From: an uncultured Hyphomicrobiales bacterium
Lineage (GTDB): Bacteria; Pseudomonadota; Alphaproteobacteria; Rhizobiales; Beijerinckiaceae
Length of the DNA: 43,591 bases
Assembly (NCBI GenBank): GCA_903884435.1
Contig: CAISEY010000402.1
Location: 1 to 43,591 of the forward strand
Direction: 5' to 3'
Below the pieces are notes generated by a model that was not told the DNA's origin, made no database searches, and saw only the letters and a list, made by a program, of their open reading frames with translations. Numbering within the stretch: the stretch's first letter is position 1; each line of letters opens with the position of its first letter. This document shows positions 16,283-25,294 of the stretch, piece by piece. The position numbers and the translations under genes are program-made.

Positions 16283-17248
16283 TCAGGGCTTCACCGGCAG
16301 AAACTTCGTCATCAGGACGTCTTCGTCCTTCGGCGGGGTTTCGACGATCCCCATATCCACGAGCGAGGAACGAAGCACCGCCATCGCCGCCGGATCGAAG
16401 GAACCATCGTCGTTGAACATGTCGATCTGGCCTTCCCAGGTGCGCTCCATGTCCTTGACGGGAAGCTTGAGGCTCCGGGCGGTGACCTCGACGGTCTTCG
16501 CCTTGTTTTTCTTGATGAAGGCGATGGATTCGAAGAACGCCTGCAGGAATCGCCGCACGAGTTCCGGCTTTCCCGCGATCAGGTCGTCGCGCGCGAACAG
16601 AAGGTGCGTGTGAAACTTCGGCGCGTATTTGTCCATGGTCTCGAGAATGCGCGCTTCCTTCTTGTCCTCGAGCGGGAAGGTCACCTCGGTCGCCAGCATC
16701 AGCGCGTCGACCTGTTTCGTTTTCAGGCCGGCGATAAAGGTCTCGAGGCCGCCGAGCGGCACGATCACGACATCGTCCGGCTTCCAGCCCTGCGCCACCG
16801 CCGCGCGGCGAATGAGCCAGTCGGTGAGGGAACCCGCCGTCGTCACGGCGAATTTCCTGCCCTTCATTTCCGAGAGCGACTTGTAGGGCGAGTCATAGGG
16901 CAGAACGACGGCGATGCTTTTTGGCTGATTTGCGAAGGCGGCGATGGCCTTCGCGGGAACGCCCTTCGCCATGAAGCCGATGCCCGGGCCTCCGCCGAGG
17001 CCGATTTCAATGGAGCCCGCGGTCAGCGCCTGCTGCATGCGCGCGTCGCCCGCGAAGGAACTCACCTCGAGTTCGATATCGTGTTTCGCGAAAATGCCCG
17101 CGTCGGTCCCGACGTCGATCACCTGGAACATCCAGGCGAAGGGGACCGACTTGCCCACTTTCAGCTTGTCGGCGGCGCAGGCCGCTCCCGCGAGCAGGCC
17201 CCACGCGGCCATGGCGACCGCGATCCCCAATTGTCCGACGCCGCGCAT
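16283..17248 (-). CDS. NitT/TauT-type ABC transporter substrate-binding protein
   Basis: [96 protein letters not shown]... Confidence 0.87.
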
Positions 17249-17382: not shown

Positions 17383-18120
17383 ATGAAAATCGACGACGTG
17401 AAACGGCGCGCCTACGCGATGCCGCTGACCAATCCATCCTTTCCGCGCGGGCCCTACCGGTTCACGGACCGGGAATACGTGATCATCACCTACCGCACCG
17501 ATCCGGCCGCCATCGCCGCCGTCGTGCCCGAGCCGCTCGTGGCGCCCGACCCGATCGTGAAATACGAATTCATCAGGATGCCGAGTTCCACGGGCTTTGG
17601 CGACTACACTTAATCCGGGCAGGTCATTCCCGTGACGTTCAATGGCGAGGAAGGCTCCTACGTTCACGCGATGTACCTCGACGACGACGCGCCCATCGCG
17701 GGCGGCAGGGAGCTCTGGGGCTTTCCGAAGAAGCTCGCCACGCCGAAGCTCCAGCACGAAGGCGAGGTCATTGTCGGGACGCTGCACTACGGCAGCGTGC
17801 TTTGCGCCACCGCAACGATGGGGTTCAAACACGTGGCGCTGAACCGCGACGATGTCGCGAAATCGCTCCTGAAGCCCAACTTCCTGATAAAGATCATTCC
17901 GCACGTCGACGCCACGCCGCGCATTTGCGAACTCGTGCGCTATTATCTCGCCGACGTGACCGTGAAAGAGGCCTGGACCGCGCCGGCGGACCTGCAATTG
18001 TTCCGGCACGTGAGCGCCGACGTGGCGCGCCTGCCCGTGCTCGAGGTTCTCTCGGCGGTCCATTTCGTCGCCGACCTGACGCTGGGGCTCGGCGAGGTCG
18101 CGCACGACTATCTCGCGTAG
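17383..18120 (+). pseudogene. Acetoacetate decarboxylase-family gene interrupted by in-frame TAA at 17611-17613
   Basis: [40 protein letters not shown]...[64 protein letters not shown]...; same frame resumes after one TAA and retains the Schiff-base PKK motif. Confidence 0.88.
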
Positions 18121-18136: not shown

Positions 18137-19108
18137 TCAAAGCCGCTCGATGTTCGCGTCGGCCACGACCTTCGTCCATTTTTCAATGTCGGAGACCACC
18201 CGGTCGCGGAAGGCCTGTCCGCTGGTCGGGCTCGCGAGGCTGCCGAGGGCGCGCAATTTCTCGATCACTGTCGGATCGGCGAGAATCGTCGCCACGCCGG
18301 CGTTGAGCCTCGCCGCGATATCCGGCGGCAGTCCGGCCGGTCCGGCGAGACCGAGCCACGAACTCGTCTCGTAACCGGGAAGTCCGGCCTCCGAGATGGT
18401 CGGCGTGTCGGGCAGGGCGTAGAAGCGCCTCGCGCCCGTCACGGCGAGCGCGCGCAGTTTTCCATCGCGGATTTGTTCGAGCAGCACGGTTGGCGTGTCC
18501 ATGATCAGGTCGATGCGCCCGGCGAGCAGGTCGAGCGTCGATTGCGAACCGCCGCGATATGGCACGTGACGCATGGAAAGCCTTCCCATGGAGGCCAGCA
18601 ATTCCCCGGAGAGGTGCTGGCCCGTGCCGTTGCCGGCGCTGGCCCACAACAGGGGCTCCGGCGCTTCGCGGCCCGCGACGAGCAGATCGGCGAAGCTCCT
18701 GATCCTGTGTTCGCTGTTTGTCGCCAGGACGAAGGGGAAGTCGGTCACCATGCTGATCATGGTGAAATCCTCGACCGACCTGTAGGCGAGCTGCCTGTAC
18801 ATCGCCGCCGCGACCGCGTGACCGCCGGGCAGGATCGCCAGAGTGTAGCCGTCCGGCGCCGCGCGGGCGACCTGCGTCGCCGCGATGGTCCCGCCTGCGC
18901 CAGACCTGATCTCGACGATGAAGGAAAATCCCGTCGCGCGTTGCAGGGCGTCCGCGACGATGCGCGCGACGACGTCGGCGTTGCCGCCGGCGGCGAACCC
19001 GTGAACAATGGTGATGGCCCGCTCCGGCCAGGCCGCGCGCGCGGGCGAAGCGAAAGCCATCGCCGCGAGGCCGCCCACGATGGAACGGCGATCTGGCCGA
19101 GGCGCCAT
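18137..19108 (-). CDS. Bug/TctC-family periplasmic binding protein
   Basis: MAPRPDRRSIVGGLAAMAFASPARAAWPERAITIVHGFAAGGNADVVARIVADALQRATGFSFIVEIRSGAGGTIAATQVARAAPDGYTLAILPGGHAV... Confidence 0.92.
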   Translation of the reverse strand: MAPRPDRRSIVGGLAAMAFASPARAAWPERAITIVHGFAAGGNADVVARIVADALQRATGFSFIVEIRSGAGGTIAATQVARAAPDGYTLAILPGGHAVAAAMYRQLAYRSVEDFTMISMVTDFPFVLATNSEHRIRSFADLLVAGREAPEPLLWASAGNGTGQHLSGELLASMGRLSMRHVPYRGGSQSTLDLLAGRIDLIMDTPTVLLEQIRDGKLRALAVTGARRFYALPDTPTISEAGLPGYETSSWLGLAGPAGLPPDIAARLNAGVATILADPTVIEKLRALGSLASPTSGQAFRDRVVSDIEKWTKVVADANIERL

Positions 19109-21494: not shown

Positions 21495-23549
21495 ATGTCA
21501 CTCGTCATCGCGCTCGATATTGGCGGCACTTTCACCGATCTCGTGGCGTTCGATTTCGCCACCGGCGCCATCCACCAGGCGAAGAGTTCCACGACGCCCC
21601 GCGATCTTTCGATCGGCATCCGCGAGACCCTGCGCAAGAGCGGCCTCGACATCGGCGCGACGGCGCTCTTCATTCACGGATCCACCGTCGCCATCAACAC
21701 GGCCATCGAGCGGACCGGCGCTCGAACCGCGCTGATCGTGACGGAAGGCACGCGCGATGTTTACGCCATCGGCCGCGGCAACCGGCCCGAGGCCTATAAT
21801 TTTCATTTCCGGCGGCCAGAACCCTACGTGAAGCGCCGCCATACATATGAAATCATCGAGCGTCTGAACGCCGCCGGCGAGATTGTCGCGCCGCTCGACG
21901 AAGCGAGCGTCGATCGCGCGATCGAACGCCTCCTCGCGGAGAAAATCGAGGCGGTCGCGATCTGCTTCCTGCATTCCTGGGCGAATCCCGCGCACGAACA
22001 GCGCGCCGGCGCCGCGATCCGGTCCCGCGCGCCCGACGTCTATTGCACGCCAAGCCACGAAATCCTGCGCGAATATCGCGAATACGAGCGCATGTCGACG
22101 AGCGTGCTCAACGCCTATGTCGGTCCGCGCGTCAGCAAGTATCTCGGAGATCTCGAAAGCCTGCTGCGCGGCCAGGGCTTCGCCGGGCCACTGCTGATCA
22201 TGCAATCGAACGGCGGCGGCATGTCGCTGGAGACGGCGCGCGCCGTGCCCGTCGCGACAATGGAGTCGGGCCCCGTCGGCGGCATCATCGCGGCGGCCGA
22301 AACGGCGCGCGGACTCGGCCTCGCCGACGTGATCGCCTTCGACATGGGCGGCACGACGGCGAAGGTCAGCCTCGTGCGCGACAACCAGCCGGACATCGCG
22401 CAGGGCTATTTCATAGGGGGCGCCGCGAGCGGCCATCCCGTCATGTATCCGGTCGTCGATATCGTCGAGGTCGGCGCGGGCGGCGGCAGCATCGCATGGA
22501 TCGACGAGGTTGGCGGGCTCAAGGTCGGCCCGCGCAGCGCCGGCGGCCAACCCGGCCCGGTCTGTTACGGACAGGGCGGAACGGAGCCGACCGTCACAGA
22601 CGCCAACGCGGTGCTCGGACGCCTTGGCGCCGACCGCTTTCTTGGCGGCGAAATGCCGCTCGACGTCGCGGCGGCGCGTGACGCCATCGAAACGAAGATC
22701 GCCCGGCCGCTCGGGCTCACCGTCAACGAGGCGGCGCTGGGAATCATCCGCATCGCCGTCGCGGAAATGTCGGTCGCGGTGCGTTCGGTCTCGGTCGGGC
22801 GCGGCTACGATCCGCGCGATTTCGCCATGGTGTCGTTTGGCGGCGCCGGTCCGCTGCACGCCATCGCCATCGCCCGCGAACTGCACATCCCCCGGGTCAT
22901 CATCCCGCGGCTGCCGGGCCATTATTCCGCGCTCGGCATGTTGCTCGCGGACAACCGGCACGATTACGTCCGCACGTTCTACAAGCCGCTGGCCGAGGCG
23001 CGGATGGAGGACATGCGCGCGATCTTCGCGGACATGACGGCGGAGGCGCGCGCGCTTCTCGTCTCGGAAGGCGCGCGGGACGAGGACATGTCCTTCCAGC
23101 TCTATCTCGACATGCGCTACGCAGGTCAGGAATTCCCCATCCAGACGCCGGTCGCGTCGGGCGATCTCGGGGGCGGCGACCGGGAGGTCTTGCGCCGCGC
23201 CTTCGACCGCGCGCACGCGCGCCGTTTCGGCCATCAGGCGCCCGATGAAGCGGTCGACGTGGTCAACCTGCGCCTCACCGCCCGGGCGCGCCGGCAACGT
23301 TCGAACTTCCCCGCGATCGAACGCGGCGACGGCGAGGCGAAGCCTCGCGGCTTTCGCGAGATCGTTCTCGACGATCCCGCCGCTCCGGTTCGCTGCCCGA
23401 CCTACGAACGGGACGATTTGCGCGCCGGCGCGCGTCTCGAGGGGCCCGCCGCCATCGCGGAATACGCCTCGACCCTCGTGTTGTTCGCCGGCGACAGGCT
23501 CCAGGTCGCACCGTCGGGCGAACTCGTCATTGAAACCGGCGCGCCATGA
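21495..23549 (+). CDS. hyuA: Hydantoinase/oxoprolinase family protein, HyuA type
   Basis: MSLVIALDIGGTFTDLVAFDFATGAIHQAKSSTTPRDLSIGIRETL...IHGSTVAINTAIERTGARTALIVTEGTRDVYAIGRGNRPEAYN...VIAFDMGGTTAKVSLVRD...; typical HyuA. Confidence 0.94.
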   Translation: MSLVIALDIGGTFTDLVAFDFATGAIHQAKSSTTPRDLSIGIRETLRKSGLDIGATALFIHGSTVAINTAIERTGARTALIVTEGTRDVYAIGRGNRPEAYNFHFRRPEPYVKRRHTYEIIERLNAAGEIVAPLDEASVDRAIERLLAEKIEAVAICFLHSWANPAHEQRAGAAIRSRAPDVYCTPSHEILREYREYERMSTSVLNAYVGPRVSKYLGDLESLLRGQGFAGPLLIMQSNGGGMSLETARAVPVATMESGPVGGIIAAAETARGLGLADVIAFDMGGTTAKVSLVRDNQPDIAQGYFIGGAASGHPVMYPVVDIVEVGAGGGSIAWIDEVGGLKVGPRSAGGQPGPVCYGQGGTEPTVTDANAVLGRLGADRFLGGEMPLDVAAARDAIETKIARPLGLTVNEAALGIIRIAVAEMSVAVRSVSVGRGYDPRDFAMVSFGGAGPLHAIAIARELHIPRVIIPRLPGHYSALGMLLADNRHDYVRTFYKPLAEARMEDMRAIFADMTAEARALLVSEGARDEDMSFQLYLDMRYAGQEFPIQTPVASGDLGGGDREVLRRAFDRAHARRFGHQAPDEAVDVVNLRLTARARRQRSNFPAIERGDGEAKPRGFREIVLDDPAAPVRCPTYERDDLRAGARLEGPAAIAEYASTLVLFAGDRLQVAPSGELVIETGAP

Positions 23550-25294
23550 CCATGCAACGCAAGCTCGATCCCGTGACTCTCGAGGTGCTGCGCAACGCGC
23601 TGCCCGCCATCGCCGCCGACATGGCGATCGACTTGCAACGCACCTCCTACAACATGATGATTTACGAGGTGCAGGACTTCTGCTGCGCGCTCGTCGACGT
23701 CGAGGGACGGCTGATCTGCCAGAACGTCGGCGGCGTCTCGCATTTCGTCGCCGACCTCGGCGTCATCATCAAGGACGCGGTGGCGCGATATGGCCGGGAC
23801 GGTTTCGCGCCCGGCGACGCGCTCGTCACCAATCACCAGCGCGTCGCGGGCCAGCACCTCAACAATGTCTGCGTCTTCACGCCGCTGTTCCACGAGGGCG
23901 CGCTGCGCGCCTTCGCCATCGTGCGCGCGCACTGGGTCGACGTCGGCGGCATGAGCACCGGCTTCAGCGCCCCGGGTCTCGTGACGGACCCGTGGATCGA
24001 GGGGCTGCAACTCGACCAGATCAAGATTCACGAAGCCGGCGTTCCCGACGAAAAGGTCTTGCGGATCATCCGCGACAACATCCGTTTTCCGGAAAACGCC
24101 ATGGGCGACCTGCGCTCGCAACTCGCCGCCTGCGCGCTGGCGGAGCGGCGTCTGTCCGAGCTGTTCACGCGCTATGGCCGCGGTCTCGTGTTCGACGCCA
24201 TCGAGCGCATGTTCGACGAGGTGGAGACGCGCTGCCGGCGCGTCGTTCGCGACATGCCGGACGGCGTATACGCGGCGGAGTCCTTCATGGATTCCGACGG
24301 GCCCGACAAGTCCGACACGATCCCGATCAAAGCCGTCGTCACGATCGCCGGCGACGACATGACCATCGACCTCACGGGATGTTCCCCGCAACGCAAGAGC
24401 GGCCTCAACGGCCGCACGCTCGCCGGCGCCTATATCGCCTACAAGGGCCTCACCGGCCCGCTCGACATGGTCAACGAAGGCTCGTTTCGCGCGCTGAAGG
24501 TCGTCATCCAGGAAGGCAACTTCATGATGGCGCGTTATCCCGCGCCAATGGCGGGCTGGAGCCGCGCCTTGCCGACGGTCGTCGACACGATCCTGAAGGC
24601 GCTCGCGCCGGCCCTGCCCGCGAAGGTTCCCGCCGCCCATCTCGGCAACCTCGGGGGCACGATGACCTTCTTCGGCCGCGACCCCGCGAAACAGCGCGAT
24701 TTCATTTTGCAAACCATCGAGGGCGGCGGCTGGGGCGGGCGGCCCGACGAGGATGGCGTCTCCACGTGCGTCTCCGTCTGCCAGGGCGACGTGCGCAACG
24801 CGCCCATCGAAACCATCGAGCTGAAATCCCCGGTGATCGTCAACCGGCGCGCGTTGCGGGAAAATTCCGGCGGCGCGGGAAAATTCCGCGGCGGTCTCGG
24901 TATCGAAACGAAAATGACGAATTATCTCGAGGGGCGCTGGAGCCTCAACAACACGGGTCGCCGTCTGTGCCCGCCGTGGGGCGTCGCCGGCGGCGCGGCG
25001 GGCGCGGCCTCGCTCAACACCATGAGCAAGCCCGGCGAAACCGACATGAAACCCTTCGATCCCGTGCGCCTCGTCTGCGCGCCGGGCACGAGCGTGATGG
25101 TGGCGACGGCGGGCGGCGGCGGCTGGGGCGATCCGCTGGATCGCGATCCCGCCAGCGTGCTCGAGGACGTGCTGGAAGAACTGGTGACGCGCGACGGCGC
25201 GCGCGATCTTTATGGCGTCGTCGTCGACATGGACAGGCGCGCGGTCGACGCGGCGGCGACCGCCGCCTTGCGCGCGGCGAAGCGGGGAGCGTGA
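23546..25294 (+). CDS. hyuB: Hydantoinase B/oxoprolinase family protein, HyuB type
   Basis: MTMQRKLDPVTLEVLRNALPAIAADMAIDLQRTSYNMMIYEVQDFCCALVDVEGRLICQNVGG...; ATGA overlap with hyuA. Confidence 0.94.
   Translation: MTMQRKLDPVTLEVLRNALPAIAADMAIDLQRTSYNMMIYEVQDFCCALVDVEGRLICQNVGGVSHFVADLGVIIKDAVARYGRDGFAPGDALVTNHQRVAGQHLNNVCVFTPLFHEGALRAFAIVRAHWVDVGGMSTGFSAPGLVTDPWIEGLQLDQIKIHEAGVPDEKVLRIIRDNIRFPENAMGDLRSQLAACALAERRLSELFTRYGRGLVFDAIERMFDEVETRCRRVVRDMPDGVYAAESFMDSDGPDKSDTIPIKAVVTIAGDDMTIDLTGCSPQRKSGLNGRTLAGAYIAYKGLTGPLDMVNEGSFRALKVVIQEGNFMMARYPAPMAGWSRALPTVVDTILKALAPALPAKVPAAHLGNLGGTMTFFGRDPAKQRDFILQTIEGGGWGGRPDEDGVSTCVSVCQGDVRNAPIETIELKSPVIVNRRALRENSGGAGKFRGGLGIETKMTNYLEGRWSLNNTGRRLCPPWGVAGGAAGAASLNTMSKPGETDMKPFDPVRLVCAPGTSVMVATAGGGGWGDPLDRDPASVLEDVLEELVTRDGARDLYGVVVDMDRRAVDAAATAALRAAKRGA

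Follow-up and report, generated by a model that had tools for sequence, protein, structure and literature searches.

An acetoacetate decarboxylase frame interrupted at codon 77

The window analyzed here, a stretch of 43,591 nucleotides, carries a gene of the acetoacetate decarboxylase (ADC) family that lies between genes for 2 substrate-binding proteins (Table 1). Translation of positions 17383–18120 on the forward strand gives 245 residues with a terminal TAG and a single internal stop, the TAA at codon 77. With this stop masked as X, the translation matches the Pfam ADC family (PF06314) over the full profile (E = 1.5e-87; 293.5 bits versus a cut-off of 29.8) and the NCBIfam acetoacetate decarboxylase model PRK02265 (406.1 bits versus a cut-off of 150), so that the gene belongs to both families by whole-profile matches above the curated cut-offs. 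Among solved structures, 3bgt, 3c8w, and 3bh2 are the nearest. The last of these is named acetoacetate decarboxylase, and a gapless alignment to it pairs codon 77 with residue 76 of 3bh2, which is the Glu in GCYTESGQAIPVSFNG. We take Glu76 to be catalytic from general knowledge of the Clostridium enzyme, and the invariance of the residue in the aligned relatives points the same way; a search of the available literature on the role of Glu76 returned no paper. The full-length match, the lysine pair, which lies 3' of the stop, and the conserved Arg and Glu62 positions are shared with the ADC family (PF06314; PRK02265; 3bh2, 3bgt), but unlike the other copies, the window copy alone has TAA in place of the Glu76 equivalent. 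Judged from its sequence, this gene is, as it stands, a disrupted member of the family rather than a working one.

Table 1. Features of the ADC locus (positions in the window).
Feature	Position	Strand	Evidence
NMT1/SsuA-type substrate-binding protein, divergent upstream neighbor	16283..17248	-	domain/family profile matches
N-terminal 76 codons of the ADC gene, the only part expected to be translated from the original start	17383..17610	+	translation, alignment, Pfam
Premature TAA, codon 77, at the Glu76 position of Clostridium ADC; GAA/GAG in all relatives	17611..17613	+	
Remaining ADC frame, open as far as the terminal TAG, constrained as in relatives; Lys-Lys pair 116-117 kept	17614..18120	+	
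Possible GTG re-initiation ORF, 162 aa, without the active-site Arg and both Glu; unlikely to be functional	17632..18120	+	
TctC-family substrate-binding protein, convergent downstream neighbor	18137..19108	-	domain/family profile matches

A promoter and terminator scan returned nothing for the ADC gene, and no ketone-body gene was recognized among its neighbors. In genome G009, a homolog (74.6% nucleotide identity) of the TctC-family gene also adjoins ADC, on the other side, and the ADC neighbors in G015 and G067 are common to each other and different from those in the window and G009. Gene order was considered as a sign of decay and set aside, since different surroundings are expected of an accessory gene and decide nothing. 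TctC-family matches number at least 151 in the 5.3-Mb window genome, 2 of them in the window, representing a strikingly expanded solute-binding repertoire. Elsewhere in the window, positions 21495–25294 hold a hydantoinase A/B gene pair which is most like the caprolactamase CapA/CapB, well below the family cut-offs.

Distribution and conservation of the gene

The ADC gene is accessory and dispensable within the group: it is present in 9 of the 51 genomes of the genus, the window genome counted, and a match (threshold E ≤ 1e-50) was found in 54 of 298 genomes of the order. Given this accessory status and the several contexts in which ADC is found, its loss would be ordinary. In the window genome, the family is represented by a single copy, and a functional backup was rejected because no second copy was found in the assembly. 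Tandem ADC pairs recur in the group (G024:C3, 392–396 kb; G065:C113, 3.2–4.8 kb; G069:C141, 32–34 kb), and 2 genomes of the order, G257 and G345, have 2 adjoining ADC genes each; the tandem genes of these 5 genomes are about 55%–67% identical to the window copy. Plasmid homologs are present in rhizobia, but at only 60%–80% nucleotide identity, and a search for a phage or viral origin of the window ADC gave no match.

Codon 77 encodes Glu in all 91 aligned relatives, in which Glu62 and Lys116-Lys117 are likewise invariant. The 4 nearest copies in the genus (89%, 85%, 84%, and 72% identical) all have GAA at this codon, so that one G>T change is enough to produce the TAA. No internal stop was found in any other ADC copy among the 50 congeners or in any other ADC match across the 298 genomes of the order. 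These results agree with the sequence-only reading, which had described a full ADC frame with one TAA, at the place of Glu76 and one G>T substitution from GAA, running unbroken to 18120 with its lysine pair.

The remainder of the gene displays no sign of relaxed constraint. The dN/dS ratio between the window ADC and its closest relative is 0.087 for the whole gene, with 0.054 for the part before the stop and 0.102 for the part after; the corresponding values between 2 intact relatives are 0.100 overall, 0.064 before codon 77 and 0.113 after. A three-way comparison assigns 11 private amino-acid changes, the stop included, to the window copy, versus 12 and 24 to the 2 intact copies. Apart from codon 77, only one position departs from columns that are at least 95% conserved, namely I44, which is common to one relative. 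The earlier remark that no other decay is visible thus holds for substitution rates, private changes, and conserved columns alike. On the best explanation, which we regard as probable, normal purifying selection acted on the gene until a very recent time. With no other decay, the disabling change is either very young or not real.

Stop-codon usage, readthrough, and re-initiation

TAA is a normal terminator in the window genome. Across 434 kb, it ends 34 of 381 predicted genes (approximately 9%), and Pfam domains were present in 9 of 10 TAA-ended ORFs checked, several of which have domains ending before the TAA; ordinary complete enzymes, including an acyl-CoA dehydrogenase, a short-chain dehydrogenase, and an inositol monophosphatase, are among them. 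The coding-score scan of these 434 kb mostly listed back-to-back genes in the same frame, its thresholds missed the ADC stop, and it was used solely for stop-codon usage. In-frame TAA was not found elsewhere among the matches listed for 4 large families of the window genome: none of the 401 domain matches listed (115 ABC_tran, at least 151 TctC, 50 adh_short, and 85 BPD_transp_1; an estimated 70,000 codons, roughly) contains an internal stop. The assembly yielded 39 tRNA matches, 38 of which were called by ARAGORN, 37 with ordinary anticodons and one as a selenocysteine tRNA (UCA); the uncalled match is cut by a contig end. The assembly is estimated to be 93% complete. No tRNA with a UUA anticodon is among the 38, a set that is incomplete, so that this absence is not proof. 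A change of genetic code was nevertheless rejected, given that TAA terminates ordinary genes, no UUA tRNA was called, and the 401 matches listed are free of internal stops. The selenocysteine tRNA (G000:C388:39039-39129, L146) has a gene for a formate dehydrogenase iron-sulfur subunit on the same contig, about 32 kb along C388 (L168:12229-13125), an arrangement that fits a selenium-dependent formate dehydrogenase.

It could be argued that readthrough or recoding occurs at the TAA with some efficiency, such that full-length enzyme is still made and the stop could act as a regulatory switch; the frame past the stop is unbroken and under constraint, and at codon 77 the identity of the inserted amino acid would matter. 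However, the only stop-reading tRNA in the incomplete set called is the ordinary UCA selenocysteine tRNA, TAA is in regular use as a terminator, and the stop occurs at codon 77 in no relative, hence there is no conserved recoding signal. The marks of recoding, that is, a UAA-reading tRNA among those called, a stop conserved in relatives, and disuse of TAA as terminator, were all missing. Near-cognate readthrough of UAA would be expected to insert mostly Gln, Tyr, or Lys rather than Glu. We therefore consider this explanation very improbable, in keeping with the sequence-only reading, which had called readthrough unlikely. The narrower version, a real TAA tolerated by readthrough, with trace amounts of full-length ADC in which the amino acid inserted at the stop determines the catalytic residue, appears more improbable still; if true, translation would be controlled at the very active site.

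Restart of translation is the other way in which a product might be obtained. The in-frame GTG that had been pointed out at 17632 does exist, 6 codons past the stop, opens a 162-codon ORF, and is preceded by a weak AGG, raising the idea of a functional C-terminal fragment of 162 residues. Yet such a fragment would be devoid of the conserved Arg30, Glu62, and Glu77 and about one third of the protein, and the bases around the GTG are coding sequence common to the relatives rather than a new start signal. A functional fragment is accordingly highly unlikely, and functional readthrough or re-initiation jointly have only a slight chance, of a few percent.

Nonsense allele or consensus error

Our favored interpretation, to which we assign a probability of roughly 60%, is that the window ADC is a genuine, recent, non-functional nonsense allele of an accessory gene. 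One recent G>T change would have turned GAA (Glu77, the equivalent of Glu76 in Clostridium ADC) into TAA. Translation would then end after 76 residues, the Schiff-base lysine would never be made, and the organism would lose its only ADC and hence the acetoacetate-to-acetone step. The locus has what is expected of a recent nonsense pseudogene, a single disabling change in a gene constrained up to the present. Two observations count against this interpretation: the same TAA is found in no second genome of the species, and the assembly is a draft of 461 contigs with about 6.9% contamination.

The latter points bear on the main competing explanation, according to which the TAA represents a base error, or else a minor strain variant that became fixed in the consensus, while the living population has Glu at this codon and an ADC that works. 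The fragmented genome (461 contigs, 6.88% contamination) speaks for it, as does the fact that the 2 closest-matching named records are metagenome-assembled; the assembly at issue is itself probably metagenome-derived. According to the available text of Cooley and Wright 2024 (PMC11017572), artifacts of sequencing or assembly account for many of the internal-stop pseudogenes in assemblies, which also speaks for this explanation. The fully constrained, undecayed state of the remaining gene adds to it: a gene that had been dead for any time should show more changes, and since none are seen, a base error fits equally well. Against it, no other internal stop occurs in the 401 domain matches listed, indicating that base errors are not common in this genome, a point in favor of the nonsense allele. 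Overall, a consensus error or strain variant is a possibility of real weight, although its odds fall clearly short of even.

The coincidence of the stop with a catalytic residue contributes little to the choice. Sixty one-step nonsense changes are possible in the gene, 4 of which strike the codons of the 2 catalytic Glu or the 2 Lys residues; for changes to TAA, the figure is 2 of 25 (the nonsense totals and the TAA list were computed, and the catalytic strikes were tallied by us). The probability that a nonsense change strikes a catalytic residue is thus approximately 7%–8%, or about 1 in 13. The position of the stop is therefore weak evidence of anything and needs no special explanation. Compared with recent nonsense pseudogenes of bacteria and internal stops created by assembly (PMC11017572), the window gene is alike in that one internal stop interrupts an accessory gene which is otherwise intact and comes from a draft genome, and differs in that its stop falls on a catalytic residue, with the above chance of approximately 7%–8%.

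Taken together, every testable part of the sequence-only reading, which had proposed a very recent inactivation or a sequencing error, stood up to the analysis. With the nonsense allele as the preferred reading, the base would be real and no product would be made. Gene loss of this kind is well known and frequent, and a draft genome with a lone nonsense codon is nothing unusual. The case serves mainly as a caution that an internal stop in such an assembly should be backed by reads before a gene is declared functional or lost. Provided that the base is real, the window ADC would represent an accessory metabolic gene caught at the very start of its loss, with one disabling change so far.
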